Of a stretch of DNA of 64,000 bases, positions 16,040 through 45,125 are shown piece by piece. Every line of letters starts with the position of its first letter. Positions within the stretch are counted from its first letter, which is position 1. Origin of the DNA: Pseudomonadota bacterium (GTDB lineage: Bacteria; Pseudomonadota; Alphaproteobacteria; Rickettsiales; UBA3002); the NCBI GenBank assembly GCA_040384265.1, contig JAZKJM010000005.1, positions 301,166-365,165 of the forward strand, written 5' to 3'. The position numbers and the translations under genes were made by a program. The notes under the pieces are model-generated. The model made no database searches, was not told where the DNA came from, and saw nothing but the letters and a program-made list of their open reading frames with translations.

Positions 16040-16639
16040 CTAGCGGTTCTGCGCACTCGACGCGTTGCGCCAACGCGAGCCATGGAAATTGGTCCATTGT
16101 TTTTTCGCGTCAAACTTCGGTGGTGCCTCGCGCGGCCCCTCTTCCATCAGGGGCGCTGCTTCCACTGCGGGCTTTTTCTCCGCCAAGGCCTCTGCCAGCA
16201 ACTCCAGCTCAGTCCCCCCTGCCCCATCCATCACCACCGCATGGAGGATAGACCTTTCATGCTTGGGGTCGCTCGCAGCCTCAATGGCCTGTTTCACCTG
16301 CGGCACGTGCTTCACCTCCAGCTGCAAGCCCGTATAGGCGACCGTCTCATCGCGCTCAGCATGCCAAACCCATTCGATGCGGCTCGGGATACATGTAAGA
16401 TCCCTCAATTTTTCCTCACGATTCGCATGCTCGAAATGCTCGATGAGCGCTTTGCGCGCCGTCTCTCCCTGCGCAACCGGCACATAAACCGTGCTGTGGT
16501 GATGCGGCCCTTTATCAATCAGCACTGCGCCGTCGAGCGCATCGCAACAGGCGCGCGATAATTCTTTCACGGCACGCGATCGCAGCGGTGCGACCTTCTC
16601 GACTACCGTCGTCGGCGTTTTTTCAGGATGCTGCGTCAT
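16040..16639 (-). CDS. Hypothetical protein behind a candidate PHO box
   Basis: A soluble protein of 199 residues from the ATG at 16639; longer forms starting at 16723 (TTG) are possible but would place the candidate regulatory site inside the gene. It is His-rich near residue 45 (GPHHHSTVYVP), has a central stretch of charged helices, and an Ala/Pro/Glu-rich segment at about 150-180. I do not recognise any family. It is divergent from plsY, and the sequence upstream carries a candidate PhoB box at 16694-16711. Confidence 0.6.
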   Translation of the reverse strand: MTQHPEKTPTTVVEKVAPLRSRAVKELSRACCDALDGAVLIDKGPHHHSTVYVPVAQGETARKALIEHFEHANREEKLRDLTCIPSRIEWVWHAERDETVAYTGLQLEVKHVPQVKQAIEAASDPKHERSILHAVVMDGAGGTELELLAEALAEKKPAVEAAPLMEEGPREAPPKFDAKKQWTNFHGSRWRNASSAQNR

Positions 16640-16693
16640 CGGCCTACCCCACACATGGAGCCGCCACGCTAGCCCATCACGCATTCTGCAAGT

Positions 16694-16711
16694 GTGAAAG
16701 TTCTGTGACAA
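16694..16711 (-). promoter_or_regulatory. Candidate PHO box upstream of the hypothetical gene at 16639
   Basis: Read on the minus strand the site is TTGTCACAGAACTTTCAC: two 7-base units separated by 4 bases, matching about 14 of 18 positions of the PhoB consensus. A -10-like CAGAAT follows at 16683-16688. It is moderate on its own and gains weight from similar sites in this window. Confidence 0.45.
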
Positions 16712-21671: not shown

Positions 21672-21689
21672 CTGTCATAAAACTGTCAT
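21672..21689 (+). promoter_or_regulatory. Perfect PHO box with spaced -10 upstream of the DUF2610 gene
   Basis: CTGTCATAAAACTGTCAT matches all 18 positions of the classical PhoB-binding consensus (two CTGTCAY units, 11-bp repeat). A -10-like TATACT lies at 21700-21705, 10 bases downstream, the spacing seen in PhoB-activated promoters where the box replaces the -35. Confidence 0.8.
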
Positions 21690-21753: not shown

Positions 21754-22026
21754 ATGAAACGCTTCACCGTCCCGTGCGATTTCAACGGCGTCAAACACCC
21801 GTTCCACGTCTATATCGGCGACCCCAACCCCAAAAAGCACCCCCTGCAATTTCAGGGCTGGTGGCTATCGTCCGAGCGCGGCGGCAACATCCCGCAGGAC
21901 GTGATGGACAGCTTCGAGAAGCTCTTCAAAATTTCGCAGGAAAATAACGTCTCCTTCGAGGACCTCTGCGTCTACGCCCTTGGCGCTGCCCAGCAGGAAA
22001 ATGAAGGCGCCGCCGTCACCAGCTAA
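21754..22026 (+). CDS. DUF2610 family protein
   Basis: A 90-residue protein preceded by AGGAGAGAG. It follows the DUF2610 pattern known mainly from Rickettsiales: MKRFTVPCDFNG, FHVYIGDPNPKKHPLQFQG, SSERGGNIPQDVMDSF and NNVSFEDLCVYALG. The biochemical function is unknown; I recall members being found near type IV secretion genes, and here it lies 3 kb from a virB cluster. It is probably co-transcribed with the large gene 20 bases downstream from the PHO-box promoter. Confidence 0.88.
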   Translation: MKRFTVPCDFNGVKHPFHVYIGDPNPKKHPLQFQGWWLSSERGGNIPQDVMDSFEKLFKISQENNVSFEDLCVYALGAAQQENEGAAVTS

Positions 22027-25192: not shown

Positions 25193-26446
25193 TCACTTCC
25201 CCTTCTTCGTGGCGTTGGCATCATTCACATTCAAGGCAGCTTGCCGTGATTCCATCGCGTGGTATTCCATCTTGCCACCCTTATCGAGGTTGACGAAGAC
25301 GTTGGAAATTTCACCCGAGATGTTCTCCACCACCTTGCCGAATTTCTGCGCAATATAGACAAGAATCAGGAAGCTGAGCATATCGACAATGTTGATCGGG
25401 AAGGATTTACAATTATCCGGCGTCGGCCCGAGCTTGCAGCTCAGCGGCCCCTGCCAGGTAAAATCATCCGTAATCGTCTGGTGGGTAACGGGATCGACAA
25501 AGCGCCAGAAGGAGATTTTGTTATCCGTCCCCGAAGCGGCTTTGTATTCCGTCCAGCACAGCTCACCGCCCAGCATATCCGTCGAGGCGCTCGTAATCAT
25601 GACGATGAAGAACGACAGGAACGTGAAATACAGGATCGGCTGTAATGAAAGATTGATGAGCGAGTTCAACCACCCCGTAAAGAGCGGTTTGGTACGCTCG
25701 AACAGCAGGAACACAATGAAAATCGGCGCAACCCCCAGCAGCAGCGAGCGCACCACAAAGCTCACCGCATAGGTCTGGAGCGCATCGAGCAGCATCTTCA
25801 GCAACCCAAACACCGCGATGCCGAGCAACCCGCCCATCGCAAATCCATACGGCCCGGCGGCAAACACAGAGCCCAGGATTGCAATCATCGTATCGGGCTG
25901 AAGCACAAAGCGCGCAAGGCTGTCGAGCGCCTTGAACGGCGACTGCCCGGCGACAAACGAGTCCCCCGTCCCGATCGACATCACCATGCCGATCAGCTCA
26001 TCCGTCCCGTCGTTGAAGAAGGTCACCACATAGGCGTTGAAATAATGCCAGCCCATCATCGGTGAAATCAGCGTGAAAATAATCCCAAGCTTCACCAGCC
26101 GTTTCAACGTCTCGCCAAAAGTCGCCTGCACCACGCCGATCATGAACCCGACACCATACACAATCACCATCAGCGTCACCGCCGCATTGACCGCATTCTG
26201 GTACGCCGAGCTATCCGTAAACGCGCTATACAGGTTGTAGGTCGCCGTGTGGATCGTCGTCTTGATGTAATTCGTGATATTGGTCAGCAAGCCCGGCGTT
26301 GTATCCGTCACCGAGGTGACTTTCAGCGTCGCAAAATTGGTGCAGACATCGGATCCCGTCGCGGCCTGCGCCATCATCGGCGCACTCACCAGCGCTACCA
26401 TCGCCAGGACAAGCCCCAGCCGGATCATGTGTTTCATGTTGCCCAT
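25193..26446 (-). CDS. virB6: VirB6/TrbL-family inner-membrane protein, third copy
   Basis: A 417-residue polytopic protein from ATG 26446. It has a signal-like N-terminus ending AQAATG, then about six membrane segments between residues 75 and 330, including the family core AAVTLMVIVYGVGFMIGVVQ and VVRSLLLGVAPIFIVFLLFERTK. A loop with CWTEYK and SCKLG holds several Cys. VirB6 forms part of the inner-membrane channel of type IV secretion. The start lies 19 bases after the previous stop. Confidence 0.85.
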   Translation of the reverse strand: MGNMKHMIRLGLVLAMVALVSAPMMAQAATGSDVCTNFATLKVTSVTDTTPGLLTNITNYIKTTIHTATYNLYSAFTDSSAYQNAVNAAVTLMVIVYGVGFMIGVVQATFGETLKRLVKLGIIFTLISPMMGWHYFNAYVVTFFNDGTDELIGMVMSIGTGDSFVAGQSPFKALDSLARFVLQPDTMIAILGSVFAAGPYGFAMGGLLGIAVFGLLKMLLDALQTYAVSFVVRSLLLGVAPIFIVFLLFERTKPLFTGWLNSLINLSLQPILYFTFLSFFIVMITSASTDMLGGELCWTEYKAASGTDNKISFWRFVDPVTHQTITDDFTWQGPLSCKLGPTPDNCKSFPINIVDMLSFLILVYIAQKFGKVVENISGEISNVFVNLDKGGKMEYHAMESRQAALNVNDANATKKGK

Positions 26447-26465
26447 CGTCACCCTCATTCCATCA

Positions 26466-28091
26466 CTAGCGTTTTATGCCGCTGAAGAAGCCCTTTGCCC
26501 CGGCCTGTATGACGCCGGGATTTTCCCGATTACCCACCACACGTTTCAGGAATTCAGCACCATATGTCTCATGGCCGGGAATCTCGTTGCCGGCCTTATC
26601 CTTAGTCGATGCACTATAGGTCGCCTTGCGTGCCTCACGCTGCATCTCGCTCGCCCCCACCTGCAGTTTCTGCTCGAAGCCACCGCTTTGTGGGCCCATC
26701 AGCGCTGCAACCGTACTACCGCCGCCCGAGAGCCTGCTGACGAGTGACATAATCGTGCGCAGCCCCTCATTGATAAGGAAGCCAAGGAGCAACAACGTAA
26801 CCAATTGCTGGAACAGTATCGTATAGGCCTCTTTTGCATTCGCGAAATCCGCTGATTTCACTTTATTTATTTTAAACACCGGCACTTTCGCCATCCGGCA
26901 CGGGTTCTCTGCCGCCGCCAGACTCGGATTGACGAAGTTTTGCAGGGTTGGCTTCATGATCTGGTTTCCAGCCCCGTCCTGCGCTGCCAGCGAGTTGCGT
27001 AGCCCGGTCGGGTCGCCGGTGATCGGGCAATCGCCAATCGCGCGTGGATCCTGCATTGCCTCATCGATTTTTGAATAGCTGAACAGCTCGCTGATAAGGG
27101 ATTTTGGCTTGCCGTTCGTACCGTCTGAAAACAGCATCGCATCATACAGCGTGAGCGCCAGCATCGCATAGGCCGTAATCATCGTCGGCATGATGAACGA
27201 GGCGACGATATTTTTCCACACCCCTTCAAAATAGCCCGCCGTCACCTTCATGAACACCAGCGGCATAAATAATGGCAGCATGATAAGCATCAGGCAGATC
27301 ACCAGATAGCCATTCAGGAACGCCAGCACCACGCGCAGCACCAGCACGAACACCGAAACCAGCACCCCAACGAGCGCAAAAAACACCGTTACCCCGAACG
27401 CCCCACCGAACAGGAACCCGCTCGCCAGTCCGAACAGACTTGCCCCCAGCAACATGCTTGGCTGTTTGGGCGTTGCCGTTCCGGCGGTGAAGCCCCACAT
27501 CTTGCCCATCACGCAATCCATGATCGCCCAGACACGTGGCGTGTTGTCGCCGGTATAGGTTGCCACATCGCAGGTCAGGCTGTTGGTATCGATCGCATGC
27601 GTCAATATATCCTGCGTCTCCGCCATAATGCCATACACTGCCGGCACCACCGTTGTCGGCAATATATTCAGCGTGGTCGTGACCAGTGCGATTTTAAGCA
27701 GTAGCAGGAAGCCCTGCTTATGCACCTGTGCATCACCCTCCAGCACCTTCACACCGAACATGACGATCACAAAGGTCAGGTACGCATAAAAGAGCGGCTG
27801 CAGCAGCGTGATCATCTGCGTCACGAACACAACCGTCGATGTCTGGATGGTGTTAACGATACACGGCACAATCCGACCCAGCAGGATGCCGCCCTTGGCC
27901 TTATCGTAATCGGCGCACCGCACCACATGACCGTCTTTATCGAGCGTCTTCAGGTCAGCCGTCGAGGGCGAGCCGGTCGGATCAGCACCCACCGCCGCAA
28001 AAGCCTCCGACGCGTGATAGGCCTGCGGCGCGAGCGCGAAGAACACGATCGCCGCCGCCAGTATCGGCAGAATATGTTTGCGTCGGATCAT
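26466..28091 (-). CDS. virB6: VirB6/TrbL-family inner-membrane protein, second copy
   Basis: A 541-residue protein with a signal-like N-terminus, a periplasmic segment (about 30-85), and membrane segments between about 95 and 320 and again near 425-450. Core features are TFVIVMFGVKVLEGD and VFFALVGVLVSVFVLVLRVV. A long soluble stretch (about 325-420) precedes the last membrane segment, and the C-terminus is Lys/Gly-rich and probably cytoplasmic. It overlaps the upstream copy by 4 bases. The low similarity among the three copies suggests distinct positions in the channel rather than recent duplication. Confidence 0.85.
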   Translation of the reverse strand: MIRRKHILPILAAAIVFFALAPQAYHASEAFAAVGADPTGSPSTADLKTLDKDGHVVRCADYDKAKGGILLGRIVPCIVNTIQTSTVVFVTQMITLLQPLFYAYLTFVIVMFGVKVLEGDAQVHKQGFLLLLKIALVTTTLNILPTTVVPAVYGIMAETQDILTHAIDTNSLTCDVATYTGDNTPRVWAIMDCVMGKMWGFTAGTATPKQPSMLLGASLFGLASGFLFGGAFGVTVFFALVGVLVSVFVLVLRVVLAFLNGYLVICLMLIMLPLFMPLVFMKVTAGYFEGVWKNIVASFIMPTMITAYAMLALTLYDAMLFSDGTNGKPKSLISELFSYSKIDEAMQDPRAIGDCPITGDPTGLRNSLAAQDGAGNQIMKPTLQNFVNPSLAAAENPCRMAKVPVFKINKVKSADFANAKEAYTILFQQLVTLLLLGFLINEGLRTIMSLVSRLSGGGSTVAALMGPQSGGFEQKLQVGASEMQREARKATYSASTKDKAGNEIPGHETYGAEFLKRVVGNRENPGVIQAGAKGFFSGIKR

Positions 28092-29794
28092 CGTCTTGTC
28101 CCCGCTAATCCCTTCGCTGTCTCCTTAAAGCTGGAGGCGATACTGCCCATCACACTGCCGACCCCACCTTTACCCGTCGGCAACTGGCCTGCCACCCCGC
28201 CCATATTCGCCGTCAGACCGAAGTCGCCCAGCAGATCGGTCGCCACGGCCGGAATCACCGCCAACAGCCCGTTCAGGATGAATACCACTATCCCACAAAA
28301 CAGGGTTGAGGCCAACACTTCGCGCATCACCTGCTGGCCCAGTTCCTTGGCGGTCGGGGTGGTTGTCGCGCCCGGAATCGTCACCGGCGGTGTGCGCGCA
28401 GCGGCCAGCAGGTCCCAGTTGACCTGCTCCTTCCAGACCTGGATCGGGTAGCTCGCATCGCATGCTTCTTTTAACGTGGCGTCCGCGGCCATTTCCTTGG
28501 GCGTACATTTACTGTTGATCATGTTGTTGACCACACTGCCAAGGTTGCTCGTCGTCGGCAGGGTCGGAATCGGGGTGGGCGGCTTGCCCTTAATCAGCAC
28601 CACGTCCTTGGGTGCTTTGGCGATGATGGGCTTGCTGGTCGCCAGTGGTGGGTTACCGGTATCGATCGTCGGCGGGCTTACCACCATACGCGGCTTGGTC
28701 AGGTAGGCATTCAAATCAAAATTATTGGCCCGCGACTCCTCGCCCGCCAACCGGTACATAATCGAATATTGCCCCGAGAATACCGCCAGGTCGATCGCCG
28801 CCAGCGAGAAAATAATAAACACCAGCATGATCACCGGCTGCAGCGTGAAGGAGATTAGCAGCTTTACCCATTTATCGAAATAGCTCTTGGTCGTGGTGAA
28901 AAGTACCAGCGGAATAATGATCGGCGAAACGATAACAAGGAACGCCACCCCCATATACCCGGCAAGGTACGTAAACAGCGCCTTGATCACCAGCATGATA
29001 AAGCCGTAAACAAAGATAAACCCGATCACTGCCAGCACCAGCCCGACAATCGAGCTTTGCATGTTGCTGAACAGGAAAAACAGCAATGCCCGCGCCGGGC
29101 CATCATTGGTTTTCGCCGGGTTCGCATTATCCAGCTTGCTGTTATATGCAACCAAACTCGACAGTGCCGCATTCGGGTCGCCGCTGGCCAGCTTGATCCC
29201 AACCACGGTATCGATCAGGCAATCCATCGCCAGCCATGGCCCGGTGACCTTTGTGCTATTGGGCGTCTGTGCCTGCATCTCAATCATGTTCTGCAGGCAC
29301 TGGCTCTGGCCGAAATCGGTGCCCGCCGCGTCGGCAGTTCCACTTGGCGGGGTATAGGTCACCACCGCAATCGCCGCCGAATCCATCATGCCCGTCACGG
29401 TGCTATAGATCAGCGGGCTGCTCGCGCAGAACCAGGAGACTGCGCCGAGTTTGATCACCAGCATGAACGTGTCGCGACCGATTTTTTCGACCATTCCCAT
29501 CGCCATCAGCACGCCATAGAGCGTCACCGCCAGCGTCATCACGATCATAATGGTATTTCTGATCAGCGGGTACAGCCCCGTGAAAAACAGCGCCGCCCCG
29601 GCGTCTACCGTTGCACGGATGCAGCCGGCAATTTTGTTCGTCAGCCCCACATAATTCGCGCTGCAATTTACGGTCTGTGCGGCCTGCGTCACCGTTCCCG
29701 TAGCCGTCTGCGCTGTCGCAGACGCCGCAAAGCCCATCACCAGCACGCCGAACATCAGCAGGATGAAACAATGCATCGCGCGGGTGCTGCTCAT
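28088..29794 (-). CDS. virB6: VirB6/TrbL-family inner-membrane protein, first copy
   Basis: A 568-residue protein with a signal peptide (ending ASATAQ), about six membrane segments between residues 70 and 340, a Pro/Thr-rich soluble loop (about 370-480) and a last membrane pair near 490-515. Core pieces include MTLAVTLYGVLMAMGMVEKIGR and FLVIVSPIIIPLVLFTTTKSYFDKWV, the latter close to the TrbL/VirB6 hallmark. The start overlaps virB4 by 4 bases (ATGA). Confidence 0.85.
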   Translation of the reverse strand: MSSTRAMHCFILLMFGVLVMGFAASATAQTATGTVTQAAQTVNCSANYVGLTNKIAGCIRATVDAGAALFFTGLYPLIRNTIMIVMTLAVTLYGVLMAMGMVEKIGRDTFMLVIKLGAVSWFCASSPLIYSTVTGMMDSAAIAVVTYTPPSGTADAAGTDFGQSQCLQNMIEMQAQTPNSTKVTGPWLAMDCLIDTVVGIKLASGDPNAALSSLVAYNSKLDNANPAKTNDGPARALLFFLFSNMQSSIVGLVLAVIGFIFVYGFIMLVIKALFTYLAGYMGVAFLVIVSPIIIPLVLFTTTKSYFDKWVKLLISFTLQPVIMLVFIIFSLAAIDLAVFSGQYSIMYRLAGEESRANNFDLNAYLTKPRMVVSPPTIDTGNPPLATSKPIIAKAPKDVVLIKGKPPTPIPTLPTTSNLGSVVNNMINSKCTPKEMAADATLKEACDASYPIQVWKEQVNWDLLAAARTPPVTIPGATTTPTAKELGQQVMREVLASTLFCGIVVFILNGLLAVIPAVATDLLGDFGLTANMGGVAGQLPTGKGGVGSVMGSIASSFKETAKGLAGTRR

Positions 29795-32187
29795 AGGGCC
29801 TTGATCCGTTCATTGAACACTGGCAGCCAGTCTTTCACATCGTCGCCCACTTCGGCGCGGATCTGGTCGAGCATACCCACTGTCTCCGCGCGGCCCGAAA
29901 GCACGCTGATAATATCTTCCATCCCCGAAAGATCGATCCGCGCCACCACCACATCCTTGCCCTGCTTCACGAGGAAATAACGCGTCGCGGTATCAGTGTT
30001 CTTGAGCAGGTTGAACTCCCGCTCCGACAGCATAAATGCCTTGCGATACGGCTCCGTCGCTTTCGGGTTGGGCAGGAAAATCTGCGTCGCCGTCTGCTGG
30101 ATCAGCGTATCCGAAATCGAGCTGTTCACCGCATCCTCCACCGACTGCGTGGCGAACACCACCATGCCGTTGAGTTTCCGCAGCGTCTTCAGCCAATCCT
30201 TGATCTTGCCCGCAAAAATACGGTTATCGACCAGCGCCCATGCCTCGTCGAGAATGATGATCGTCGGCGTCCCATCAAGCGACATCTGGATCCGGTGGAA
30301 CAGGTACAGAAGCACCGGCACCAGGCAGGCCTTGTTGTTGAGCACATCGCCCATCTCGAAGCCAAACACCGTGTCGCTGAAGAAGTCCACCCGGTCTTCC
30401 GCATTGTCGAAAATCTCGCTGAAGCGGCCGCCTGAATGCCACTGCTTGAGCCGCGACGCAACCGTCCCGGGCCCTTCCATGCCAAAGAACGAGGCAACCG
30501 TGTGCAGCACCCGGTCTTCCTTGCGCAGCTTGTAGGAGCCCTCGATAGCGCGCTGGACAACGCCCATATCGTCCGCCGAGATTGGCTCGTCATTCACCGC
30601 GATCAGCGCCGACAGCCACTCGGCGATGAAGGAGCGGTTCTCCATCGTGTCATCCAACTGCAACGGGTTGAAATAGCATTTCTTCGCCGGGTCGATATGG
30701 GTATATTGCCCATCCAGCGCCCGCACAAAAATCTCCGCGCCGCGATCCTTGTCGAACATGAACAGGCGGCAATTGAACTTCAGCGCCTGCGCGCACAGAA
30801 AGTTCATCAACACCGTCTTACCCGCACCGGTCGGGCCGATGATCGTCGTATGACCCACATCGCGCGCGTGGAAATTGAAGAAGAACGGCGTGCCCGATGT
30901 CGTGTCAAACACCGTCACCGCATCGCCCCAATGGTTGTCGGAAATTTTGCCGACCGGATAGTTATGCATCGCCGCGAAGCCCGCGATATTGAGCGTGTTG
31001 ATCTGCGACGCGCGGCCGATATATTCGCCGTTACCCGGCAACTGCGCCCAATAGCACTGCTCCAGAATCAACTTCTCGCGCACCGGGTTGATGCCGACAT
31101 TCACCAGCTCGGCGATCACCATCGAAATCGCCGCTTCCAGCGCGCCGAGATTATCCTCGATGCACATCACCGTCAGGTGGTGCTTGCCAAACGCAATATG
31201 CCCCGACATCGCCATATCCAGCGCGTCGGAAATTTCGCGTACCTGGCTTGTCGCCAGATCGTTCGAGTTGGCCATGCGCCGCTGCTGCAGCTGCATCGAG
31301 CCGATATTGGTCTGCCGGTTTTCGAACTGATAGCTCTGCGCCACCGTCAGCTCGAACGGCATCTGCAAAAACGCATCCATGATGCCTGCTGCCGTGTGCG
31401 GCGCATATTCCTTGATGCTGACAATCCCCGCGAACCGCGTGCCGGAAGCCGAACGAATCTCAATCGCCCGGTTGCCAAAATACAGGCGGCTGGTCGGCAG
31501 GTAATGGGCGATGTCGATCGTCGGCACCATCACCGGCTGGCCGCCCCCGGCATTGACAAGCCGCCCGAGGAACTCCAGCGGCTCCGAGATCGGGCCAAAC
31601 TCGCCCATCGTCGTCGTCAGCACCCGCGCGCCGTAATCGCGGAACGTCGCCAGCACCCGATAGACGGATTCCTTCAGCTCCTTATGCATTTCCTGCAGCT
31701 GGTTGGCATCCGCGCCTTTGTTGGTTTTCTGCTCGAATTTGTTGATCAGGCTCTGCAGCCGCGCAGCGCCCTTGGTGTCGTCCTTGCGAATCACGCTGAT
31801 ATATAGCTCATTCACAAATGAGGAATGCGAATGGTGTTTCTTGCGCCATTTATCATCGACATAGGACGCAAATCCCGGCGGCATCTTGCCTTCCGGGTAG
31901 GCGCTCTGGCGGCGGCGCACCATGTGGAACCACATGCTGAACGTGCCTTCCGCCATCGATTTATACAGCGAATTGCGGACCATTTTTTTCATGTCCACCA
32001 CATCGTCATCCGCCGTCTCGAACGAGAAACCCTCGATCTTGATGATCTGGATCAGCTCACGATTTTTGGTGATGATGGTGTCCTTGTCCCAGTGGTGGTC
32101 ATACGGAATAAACTCCGCCGCCGAGACTTCGCGCTTGGCGACCTCGCTTTTCGACACTTTCCGCCGGGTGAGTGGACGCAGGATCAT
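29791..32187 (-). CDS. virB4: Type IV secretion ATPase VirB4
   Basis: The large ATPase that powers assembly and transport at the inner-membrane face; 798 residues. The N-terminal CagE/TrbE/VirB domain spans about 180-390, Walker A is GPTGAGKT at 451-458, and Walker B is IIILDE at 643-648 followed by AWALVD. The C-terminal motif ATQSVEDAVNS precedes the last 100 residues. It lies 3 bases after virB3 and overlaps the first virB6 gene, so the genes are surely co-transcribed. Confidence 0.96.
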   Translation of the reverse strand: MILRPLTRRKVSKSEVAKREVSAAEFIPYDHHWDKDTIITKNRELIQIIKIEGFSFETADDDVVDMKKMVRNSLYKSMAEGTFSMWFHMVRRRQSAYPEGKMPPGFASYVDDKWRKKHHSHSSFVNELYISVIRKDDTKGAARLQSLINKFEQKTNKGADANQLQEMHKELKESVYRVLATFRDYGARVLTTTMGEFGPISEPLEFLGRLVNAGGGQPVMVPTIDIAHYLPTSRLYFGNRAIEIRSASGTRFAGIVSIKEYAPHTAAGIMDAFLQMPFELTVAQSYQFENRQTNIGSMQLQQRRMANSNDLATSQVREISDALDMAMSGHIAFGKHHLTVMCIEDNLGALEAAISMVIAELVNVGINPVREKLILEQCYWAQLPGNGEYIGRASQINTLNIAGFAAMHNYPVGKISDNHWGDAVTVFDTTSGTPFFFNFHARDVGHTTIIGPTGAGKTVLMNFLCAQALKFNCRLFMFDKDRGAEIFVRALDGQYTHIDPAKKCYFNPLQLDDTMENRSFIAEWLSALIAVNDEPISADDMGVVQRAIEGSYKLRKEDRVLHTVASFFGMEGPGTVASRLKQWHSGGRFSEIFDNAEDRVDFFSDTVFGFEMGDVLNNKACLVPVLLYLFHRIQMSLDGTPTIIILDEAWALVDNRIFAGKIKDWLKTLRKLNGMVVFATQSVEDAVNSSISDTLIQQTATQIFLPNPKATEPYRKAFMLSEREFNLLKNTDTATRYFLVKQGKDVVVARIDLSGMEDIISVLSGRAETVGMLDQIRAEVGDDVKDWLPVFNERIKAL

Positions 32188-32190
32188 GCC

Positions 32191-32487
32191 CTAGAACACA
32201 TCGTAAGAGTTGGTGAACGAGTGATACGCCCGGTTCCACGAGCGGAAGCCATATTTCATCCGCAGCATCCACAGCTCGATGGCGCGCGGCTCCTTCATGC
32301 ATAGCAGGTAGCCAAATCCATGGATCACCCCAGCCAGCGGCAGCACCGCGAACGAGTGGGTATTGATGAACATAATCATACAAATCATCGCGTTGATGAC
32401 GAAATACATGTAGCTCACCCCGGCAATCATCGGCGGCCGTGCAAGCCCTTGAAACAGCGGATCAGCAGCTAAACGACCACCCGACAT
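32191..32487 (-). CDS. virB3: Type IV secretion protein VirB3
   Basis: A 98-residue protein with the VirB3 pattern: DPLFQGLARPPMIAGVSYMYF, two adjacent membrane segments (about 20-60) and a C-terminal tail with EPRAIELW. The ATG at 32487 is preferred to a GTG at 32493 because GGGG lies 5 bases upstream. VirB3 partners VirB4. It is the first gene of the operon; promoter candidates are upstream at 32554-32582. Confidence 0.9.
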   Translation of the reverse strand: MSGGRLAADPLFQGLARPPMIAGVSYMYFVINAMICMIMFINTHSFAVLPLAGVIHGFGYLLCMKEPRAIELWMLRMKYGFRSWNRAYHSFTNSYDVF

Positions 32488-32501
32488 ATGCACCCCATCC
32501 C

Positions 32502-32553: not shown

Positions 32554-32582
32554 AATATACCCGCAGCTTCTCAGTTTACCAA
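32554..32582 (-). promoter_or_regulatory. Sigma-70-like promoter for the virB operon
   Basis: On the minus strand TTGGTA (32577-32582) and TATATT (32554-32559) are 17 bases apart. Just upstream, TTTAC and GTAAA form an inverted pair nine bases apart near 32587-32605. The transcript would begin near 32547. Confidence 0.5.
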
Positions 32583-32667
32583 GAATTTACTAAAATTGTG
32601 TAAAGATTCCGCGCTTCCGTGCGGCAAGCATGCAAAAATGATATACTGCGACGGGATCGGCCCGAGA

Positions 32668-42977: not shown

Positions 42978-43676
42978 CTAGCGCCCTATCCCATGGAAGT
43001 GGGATGATTGGTAGCCAATGTGCGCAAGGCTTTCTTTGGTAGTGGCAGCATATGCGAACACATCTGCCAGCGCCAAGCGATACTCGCCAAGCTGTGTGCG
43101 AATGATCGCTTGCTTGTCGGCATCGACCACATCGCTATTGGCGCCGAGCCACTGCTCGACATCATTTGCAAGGCGCGGATAAGCTTCACCAAATGTTTCT
43201 GCACATGGGTTTTTAGGCGTGCCGGTCATTTGACTTCGCTTGCTTGGTTGATCAAAATTATGGACAAACAGATAAGGGATTTCAAGGGGGTGCTTTCTTC
43301 CCACAAGTTTTTGTCTTAGGCCATATTGGATATAAAATCCCGGCCCATTGCTCAACTCCTCAAGCAGGCCATAATCACCCGCCAGCCGGTCTTGCATTTC
43401 CCGTGATTCCATCCCATCCCGCCAGGGACGGGTTTCGCAAACAAGCCCCGCATCTCTTTCTGCAGGGTGCGCCTCATCCGGCGGAATCTTAGCATCATAT
43501 TCACGAGGATACAGGAATGGAGTGATCTGCTTGGCGATCTCCTTCCCGGCCTTCTCCAAACGCGTCCATGCCCCCTCTGGCGAGATGAGGCCTTGGGTGC
43601 GCTCCACAATATCCTCTTGAGAAAGCGTGCCCCCTGCAACCAGTAATTCTGAATTTTCGAAGTCGCCAACGTACAT
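42978..43676 (-). CDS. Hypothetical protein controlled by a four-unit PHO-like site
   Basis: A 232-residue soluble protein with no signal peptide. AAGGAA precedes the start. Notable pieces are TPFLYPREYDAKIPPDEAHP (about 52-71), GPGFYIQYGLRQKLVGRKHP, a motif TGTPKNPCAETFGEAYPRLA and an acidic C-terminal helix. I do not recognise the family. Upstream lie a good -10 and four 11-bp-spaced TGTCA units. It could be read into xseB, 80 bases downstream. Confidence 0.65.
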   Translation of the reverse strand: MYVGDFENSELLVAGGTLSQEDIVERTQGLISPEGAWTRLEKAGKEIAKQITPFLYPREYDAKIPPDEAHPAERDAGLVCETRPWRDGMESREMQDRLAGDYGLLEELSNGPGFYIQYGLRQKLVGRKHPLEIPYLFVHNFDQPSKRSQMTGTPKNPCAETFGEAYPRLANDVEQWLGANSDVVDADKQAIIRTQLGEYRLALADVFAYAATTKESLAHIGYQSSHFHGIGR

Positions 43677-43705
43677 GCTTATTCCTTGTTCCTGAAAAGA
43701 ATCAG

Positions 43706-43759
43706 TCTATAACCCCCACGTGACAGTTTGATGACAACCCGATGACAAGTGTGTGACAT
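43706..43759 (-). promoter_or_regulatory. Promoter with four tandem PhoB-type half-sites
   Basis: On the minus strand the units ATGTCAC, TTGTCAT, TTGTCAT and CTGTCAC begin at 43759, 43748, 43737 and 43726, exactly 11 bases apart. TATAGA at 43706-43711 follows 8 bases after the last unit as the -10. The first unit overlaps the ffh start codon on the other strand. Direct repeats on one helical face are typical of OmpR/PhoB-family regulators. Confidence 0.75.
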
Positions 43760-45125
43760 GTTCGAGAACCTAAGCAAACGCCTGACCGATTCGCTGGATA
43801 AACTGCGCCGCAAGGGCCGGCTGAGCGAGGCCGATGTGCAGGACGCGCTGCGCGATGTGCGCATGGCGCTGCTGGAGGCGGATGTGGCCCTGCCCGTGGC
43901 GCGGGATTTCATCGCCAGCCTGAAGGAAAAAATCGTCGGCGCGGATATTGTCGCCAGCGTTTCCCCGGCGCAGATGGTGATTAAACTGGTGTATGATGCG
44001 CTTGTCGAGCTGCTGGGCGGCGCGGAAACCGCCGAGCTCAACCTCGCCAGCGCACCACCGGCCGTGATCCTGATGTGCGGGCTGCAAGGCTCCGGCAAAA
44101 CCACCACCACCGGCAAACTGGCCCTGCGCCTGCGCGAGAAGCTGAAGAAGCGCGTGCTGGTCGCCAGCCTCGATATTTACCGCCCCGCCGCGCAGGAGCA
44201 GCTCGCTAGCGTCGCCCTCACCGCGCAGGTGGATGCGCTGCCCATCGTCGCCGGGGAGCTGCCTGCCGCCATCACCCGCCGCGCGCTCGATGCCGCGCGC
44301 AAAGGCGGCTACGATGTGCTGCTGCTCGACACCGCCGGTCGCCTGCATGTGGATGACGCGCTGATGGCCGAGCTGCAGGAGGTCAAACAGCTCGCGCAGC
44401 CGGTTGAAACCTTGCTGGTCGCCGATTCGTTGACCGGGCAGGACGCCGTCACCATCGCTAAAGCCTTTCACGACGCGATCGGCGTCACCGGCATCGTGCT
44501 GACGCGCCTGGATGGCGACGGACGCGGCGGTGCGGCGCTTTCCATGCGCAGCATCACCGGCCAGCCGATCAAATTTATGGGTCTGGGCGAGCGGCTCACC
44601 GAGTTCGAGCCATTCCACGCCGAGCGCATCGCCGGGCGCATCCTCGATAAGGGCGACGTGGTCTCCCTCGTCGAAAAAGCCGCCGAGGTGATGAACACCG
44701 CCGAGGCCGAAACCGCCGCCAAGCGCATGATGCAAGGCAAGTTCGACCTCAACGACATGCTCGGCCAGATGCGCCAGATCGGCAAAATGGGCGGGCTTGG
44801 CGGGGTGATGAGCCTGATGCCAGGCATCGGCAAGCTCAAGGACGCCATGGCCAACACGCCCATGCCCGATGATAAAGCGATCAAGCGGCAGGAGGCGATC
44901 ATCCTCGCCATGACCCCCGCCGAACGTGCCAAGCCCGACCTGCTCAACGCCTCCCGCCGCCGCCGCATCGCCATTGGTTCAGGCGTGCAGGTCAGCGATG
45001 TGAACCGCCTCATCAAACAGTACCAGCAGATGGAAACGATGATGAAGCAGATGAAGAAAATGGGCACCAAGGGCATGATGAACCCGCTGAAACTCAAGCA
45101 GATGCTTGGGCAAATGGGCGGCTAA
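43758..45125 (+). CDS. ffh: Signal recognition particle protein Ffh
   Basis: The SRP54 GTPase, 455 residues from ATG 43758 (a GTG at 43749 is less likely). It has an N domain (1-85), a G domain with GLQGSGKTTTTGKLA (about 107-121), DTAGRLH and TRLDGDGRGGAALS, and a methionine-rich M domain (about 325-455) ending in MLGQMGG. It heads the ffh-rpsP-rimM-trmD-rplS block. The start codon lies within a PHO-like site that serves the divergent gene. Confidence 0.98.
   Translation: MFENLSKRLTDSLDKLRRKGRLSEADVQDALRDVRMALLEADVALPVARDFIASLKEKIVGADIVASVSPAQMVIKLVYDALVELLGGAETAELNLASAPPAVILMCGLQGSGKTTTTGKLALRLREKLKKRVLVASLDIYRPAAQEQLASVALTAQVDALPIVAGELPAAITRRALDAARKGGYDVLLLDTAGRLHVDDALMAELQEVKQLAQPVETLLVADSLTGQDAVTIAKAFHDAIGVTGIVLTRLDGDGRGGAALSMRSITGQPIKFMGLGERLTEFEPFHAERIAGRILDKGDVVSLVEKAAEVMNTAEAETAAKRMMQGKFDLNDMLGQMRQIGKMGGLGGVMSLMPGIGKLKDAMANTPMPDDKAIKRQEAIILAMTPAERAKPDLLNASRRRRIAIGSGVQVSDVNRLIKQYQQMETMMKQMKKMGTKGMMNPLKLKQMLGQMGG

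Follow-up and report, generated by a model that had tools for sequence, protein, structure and literature searches.

Within a 64,000-nucleotide stretch of a Rickettsiales genome (hereafter the window; contig JAZKJM010000005.1 of assembly GCA_040384265.1, positions 301,166 to 365,165), four TGTCA half-sites stand in tandem between ffh and the divergently oriented gene for a 232-residue protein. From sequence comparisons we consider it likely that this array is a double Pho box serving as the PhoB-activated promoter of the 232-residue gene, and that it belongs to a PhoB regulon that has been redirected to a type IV secretion system (T4SS) and candidate effectors. The G+C content of the window is 60%, the maximum for Mitibacteraceae is given as 61% in a passage of PMC10847448, and the host is a probable basal, Mitibacteraceae-like member of the Rickettsiales.

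The array occupies 43721-43758 of the minus strand; read on the plus strand, its units are TGACA starting at 43721, 43732, 43743 and 43754. The four units in exact 11-base steps described in the initial annotation are thus borne out. That annotation also had the outermost unit covering the ffh start codon, which is slightly too strong, the overlap between the unit (43754-43758) and the ATG (43758-43760) being real and one base long. Downstream of the array on the minus strand come TTATAGACT and then, at 43676, the ATG of the 232-residue open reading frame (ORF; 42978-43676, minus strand). A consensus scan of 43600-43820 revealed no conventional -35/-10 pair, as expected if the promoter is activator-dependent. 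A chance run of repeats, in favour of which nothing was found, has a negligible probability: the three-unit pattern with up to two mismatches has three matches in the window, all of them within the array, against a mean of 0.06 and a maximum of 2 in 100 shuffles, and a first-order Markov model predicts 8e-7 exact four-unit arrays per 2.0 Mb. The reversed-motif control and the positional conservation in a second genus, both given below, likewise refute it.

A Pho box is built from at least two direct repeats of 11 nt, with a conserved stretch of 7 nt that reads CTGTCAT in E. coli (PMC4415409, PMC3465305, in part). The tandem 11-nt repeats of the array, with their TGTCA core, are of this kind, as in the Pho boxes of E. 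coli and Sinorhizobium. A search of the window's own genome (G000) for the two-unit motif YTGTCAY-N4-YTGTCAY (YTGTCAYNNNNYTGTCAY) with at most one mismatch gave 53 matches, forming 49 site clusters, versus three for the reversed control. Across 37 genomes, comprising 14 of the same family (G000 included) and 23 from outside it, each of a separate family, the exact motif occurs 242 times versus twice for the control, and 25 of these genomes possess at least one exact site. The counts are 180 versus one within the family and 62 versus one outside; for the three-unit motif with one mismatch they are 45 versus four and six versus three, respectively.

These sites also share a fixed distance to a -10-like element, a further characteristic of Pho boxes. 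In 33 of 71 contexts (distinct exact sites drawn from the 242, the site lists being complete for 18 genomes and G000), TAnnnT is found 16 bases from where the last unit starts, and in nine more at offset 27, the window background being 0.4%. The offset is likewise 16 in E. coli phoA. At the array under study this distance leads to TAGACT (43704-43709, minus strand), which is the predicted -10. The TATAGA box of the initial annotation is present two bases away (43706-43711, minus strand), yet as the working -10 it is less likely than TAGACT, because offset 16 recurs at other sites of the class. Half-site form, orientation and -10 spacing therefore all fit the PhoB-type activation of the 232-residue gene that had been suggested, and activation itself is predicted from these features of the sequence.

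The genome encodes a PhoB that passes the NCBIfam cut-off (332 bits versus 296). The best match of its DNA-binding domain among solved structures is E. coli PhoB, and the recognition helix RTVDVHxRRLRKAL is kept, the same helix as in the E. coli protein; operator and a regulator with the conserved helix are hence found in one genome. Exact sites and PhoB also occur together across genomes. Among the 37, at least one exact site is present in 23 and absent from two of those with PhoB, as opposed to two and ten of those lacking it (Fisher p = 1.1e-5), and when the count is confined to the 23 genomes of other families, the corresponding numbers are ten and two versus one and ten (p = 6e-4). The two traits agree in 33 of 37 genomes, with both in 23 and neither in ten, relatedness of the genomes being uncorrected in these counts.

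Another OmpR-family regulator might bind the TGTCA repeats in place of PhoB, since G000 contains 19 matches to the PhoB model. One other regulator, G000:C5:520646, which we take to be ChvI-like, has a partly similar helix (DRTIDSHIRRIRQK), and genome G011 combines sites with a ChvI-like regulator and no PhoB over the cut-off. The chvI gene of Agrobacterium is reported, in the title of one study, to complement an E. coli phoB mutation. Regulators of this type, however, were found in four of the 37 genomes (E <= 1e-55) versus exact sites in 25, a distribution that led us to reject it as the general binder, and the other helices compared, among the seven of the 19 matches that were fetched, are further from that of PhoB. 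We regard such a substitution as improbable.

Conservation of the array was followed at the ffh locus. In G013, which belongs to another genus, a homologous gene (30% identical protein) is preceded by the same four units upstream of ffh, and 24 of 24 TGTCAY core positions are identical versus seven of 15 spacer positions (p = 1e-4). In G003 the region upstream of ffh contains a pair of exact units and again GTTATAGACT, followed by an ORF that ends after 55 codons; these Pho units and the short ORF (L063, from 2919) perhaps mark a decayed gene.

The divergent neighbour, ffh itself (43758-45125, plus strand; SRP54), could be considered the principal target of the array, for instance through a block of transcription, so that protein targeting would follow the signal, a link that the initial annotation had drawn. 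The array extends onto the ffh start codon and follows closely after TATAAC (43708-43713, plus strand), which was picked out by eye as a candidate -10 of ffh. Orientation and -10 spacing, on the other hand, suit the divergent gene. Furthermore, ffh was located in nine of the 14 family genomes (E <= 1e-60), and inspection by eye of 150 bases revealed no tandem array before it in five of them (G005, G006, G008, G009 and G010). Because these five ffh genes have no such array and the other ffh loci are mixed, ffh is probably merely a packed neighbour for which the array is not meant, and the link to protein targeting is not upheld; primary control of ffh is very unlikely. TATAAC also overlaps the core of the predicted promoter, and no consensus promoter was found there in the scan; as a speculation, the overlap might allow interference.

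The genes behind the sites are, for the most part, orphans. From the 49 clusters of G000, 39 downstream proteins were scanned: one cluster had no downstream ORF under the rule used, and nine were excluded on account of an implausible longest ORF, a site within a coding region or proximity to the virB2 repeat described below, some of these having a shorter plausible ORF. At E <= 0.01 Pfam recognized eight families, each in one member, namely SCO1-SenC, AhpC-TSA, Thioredoxin_8, DUF2610, Peptidase_M23, PG_binding_1 and two weak matches; the first three probably represent one protein. At most eight of the 39 proteins are thus matched, and at least 31 are without a Pfam match. A control scan of 54 window ORFs (56 chosen greedily, less two regulon candidates) gave 100 families, a figure that counts families rather than ORFs matched and includes some spurious reading frames.

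The 232-residue protein is one of these orphans, with no Pfam match at E <= 1 and no NCBIfam match at E <= 0.01. Homologues occur in five of 216 genomes of the order, G000 included. The structure model, built on three sequences, is helical with a mean pLDDT (predicted local distance difference test) of 78.3; it has no match in the PDB at E <= 0.001, and the attempt to derive a function from the fold was given up.

Several site-linked products deserve mention in their own right. A one-mismatch site (16694-16711, minus strand) lies in front of a roughly 214-residue ORF (16040-16684). The products of L208 (about 480 residues, G000) and L175 (about 610 residues, G006) are 32% identical over 461 columns; they form one family found behind sites in two genera. 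Zinc-peptidase-like motifs were seen by eye in two others, HELTH in L237:1505-2401 of G000, whose product gave no match to Pfam at E <= 1, and HEYEH in L182 of G005. Finally, L010 and L019 both contain GAATTCTTAGGG and TTAA-N7-TTAG beside their Pho sites, elements that we take to be reminiscent of CtrA sites.

The connection with secretion comes from the virB genes. VirB4 was found in all 37 genomes searched and twice in G000; virB4 is thus duplicated, which together with several VirB6-family genes is characteristic of an rvh-type T4SS, and VirB4 exceeds the NF010473 cut-off. One locus lies in the window (25193-32493, minus strand) and comprises virB3, virB4, two VirB6-family genes and an unassigned ORF between the latter (Pfam, NCBIfam); over both T4SS loci of G000, Pfam identifies VirB3 and three VirB6-family genes. 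In three relatives VirB2 genes lie 3′ of exact sites, these being G010 (Pfam TrbC) and G023 and G033 (blastp relatives of the G010 VirB2). The virB4 operon follows VirB2 in G010, and none is present in the stretch seen in G023 and G033. Exact sites occur in G011 before virB4-II and also before a VirB3-like ORF with virB4-I, where virB4-II denotes the side with the weaker VirB4 match, mostly accompanied by a VirB2-like ORF. In G003, G004, G005, G006, G033 and G034, VirB2-like genes or virB4-II have near-exact arrays in front of them. When the regions upstream of virB4 were scored, seven of 39 reached at least 11 of 12, all on the virB4-II side; on the virB4-I side the exact site of G011, in a separate locus, is the only one.

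Two further observations concern the T4SS genes of this genome. The virB2 ORF together with its upstream region is present twice in G000:C3:336804-338441 (L244), the copies being 1176 bases apart and identical over the part printed. Upstream of the window virB3, TTTAC occurs twice at an 11-bp step at 32575-32590 (GTAAA on the minus strand), and a similar GGTAA repeat lies upstream of virB3 in G001 (L279). The repeat at 32575-32590 is perhaps a second operator for the window T4SS locus.

An ordinary phosphate-starvation regulon, in which the orphan genes save or fetch phosphate and are unrelated to secretion, must also be weighed. PhoB, pst and, beside pst, a PhoR-like kinase are all present, the kinase scoring 292 bits and so below its model cut-off of 334. 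Moreover, the exact box CTGTCATAAAACTGTCAT (21672-21689, plus strand) upstream of the DUF2610 gene (21754-22026, plus strand) agrees in all 18 letters with the E. coli pstS box tabulated in PMC3465305. Relatives of the DUF2610 protein that are 93% identical are encoded 3′ of exact sites in G002 and G013. The usual targets of PhoB are pst and phoB, and a PhoB without a box at pst is unusual. Against the phosphate regulon, no exact site was found within 10 kb of pstB in any of the 16 genomes in which both are readable, the fragmentation of contigs limiting this count, nor does a tandem site occur at pst or phoB of G000; none of the eight Pfam families behind its sites is a phosphate gene, whereas VirB2 genes do follow exact sites in the three relatives. 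A classical regulon of this kind is ruled against by the lack of pst sites, and we judge a purely phosphate-saving role unlikely, though less so than the other alternatives.

Several findings weigh against a PhoB regulon redirected to secretion. The strict three-unit search of G000 with two mismatches gave merely 13 matches versus seven for the control. The virB2 promoter of G000 consists of four 11-bp units with degenerate letters, and a TGTCA array was looked for upstream of virB3 in the virB3-virB4 locus of the window without being found. There is no box in front of pst in G000, and phoB has a single upstream TGTCAT half-site. G011 and G026 contain sites (five and one, respectively) without a PhoB over the cut-off, and G031 and G034 possess PhoB without an exact site; G031, G034 and G011 are at most 81% complete, leaving G026 as the only one of the four discordant genomes above that value. 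The initial annotation had named loss of the 11-bp spacing in close relatives that keep the gene as the observation that would speak against its proposal, and here the relatives differ: the spacing is intact in G013, G002 of the same genus retains the 232-residue gene with a degenerate array, and the distant homologues in G009 (away from ffh) and G079 have weak partial units only.

With these points taken into account, the redirected PhoB regulon is the explanation that we prefer. Phosphorylated PhoB would bind the double Pho box in tandem and bring RNA polymerase to TAGACT (43704-43709), thereby turning on the 232-residue gene together with the rest of the regulon, which in this genome would comprise some 40 promoters. 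Within the lineage, control would have shifted away from phosphate uptake and towards lineage-specific proteins, which would most likely be rvh-type T4SS substrates, and towards virB2 genes of that system. PhoB bound at the ffh leader might, at most, dampen ffh. Delivery by the T4SS appears the likeliest role, because VirB2 (in relatives), proteins active on peptidoglycan and numerous orphans belong to the regulon and pst does not; by analogy, such a role would parallel that of PmrA and CpxR in Legionella.

The operator and its regulator belong to known types; what is new is the set of targets. Unlike the Pho regulons of E. coli and Sinorhizobium, this one has no exact sites near pst, a half-site at phoB, orphan targets and, in relatives, VirB2. 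Phosphate starvation reportedly induces Agrobacterium virG (so the title of a 1990 paper by Winans); there too low phosphate would feed a vir-type T4SS, but by way of virG, whereas here the boxes would be placed at virB2 and the candidate effector genes themselves. In Legionella the OmpR-family regulators PmrA and CpxR control numerous effectors, and their operators mark both the T4SS and those effectors (PMC2701608, in part); the regulator differs from that seen here, the system is Icm/Dot rather than rvh, and secretion of the present products is a prediction. Transcriptional control of T4SS operons in the Rickettsiales is exemplified by EcxR-type regulation in Ehrlichia and Wolbachia, which depends on XRE-like proteins rather than a two-component regulator (PMC7397232, in part). 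PhoB is mentioned nowhere in that text, and the titles and abstract openings listed in searches of open PubMed Central papers contain no report of a PhoB regulon with an rvh T4SS.

According to passages of PMC9352585, none of the verified Rickettsiales effectors could be attributed to the ancestor's rvh T4SS, and hardly any in Mitibacteraceae; killing of bacteria or defence against protists has been proposed there. The effector question in basal Rickettsiales is also touched upon in part of PMC11077975, and putative effectors in basal families have already been found by homology (PMC10847448, in part). The promoter signature, found at VirB2 genes of relatives and at dozens of orphan genes in this genome, offers a homology-free list of candidates to test that includes an M23 peptidase and a peptidoglycan-binding protein. 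The redirected regulon would in addition exemplify a phosphate regulator whose operator was kept while the genes under its control changed. More tentatively, and with somewhat less than even confidence, PhoB may be the master switch of rvh secretion in basal, possibly free-living Rickettsiales, the signature listing dozens of unrecognized effectors, the 232-residue protein included, and phosphate limitation, perhaps in or near prey or host cells, acting as the trigger of secretion.
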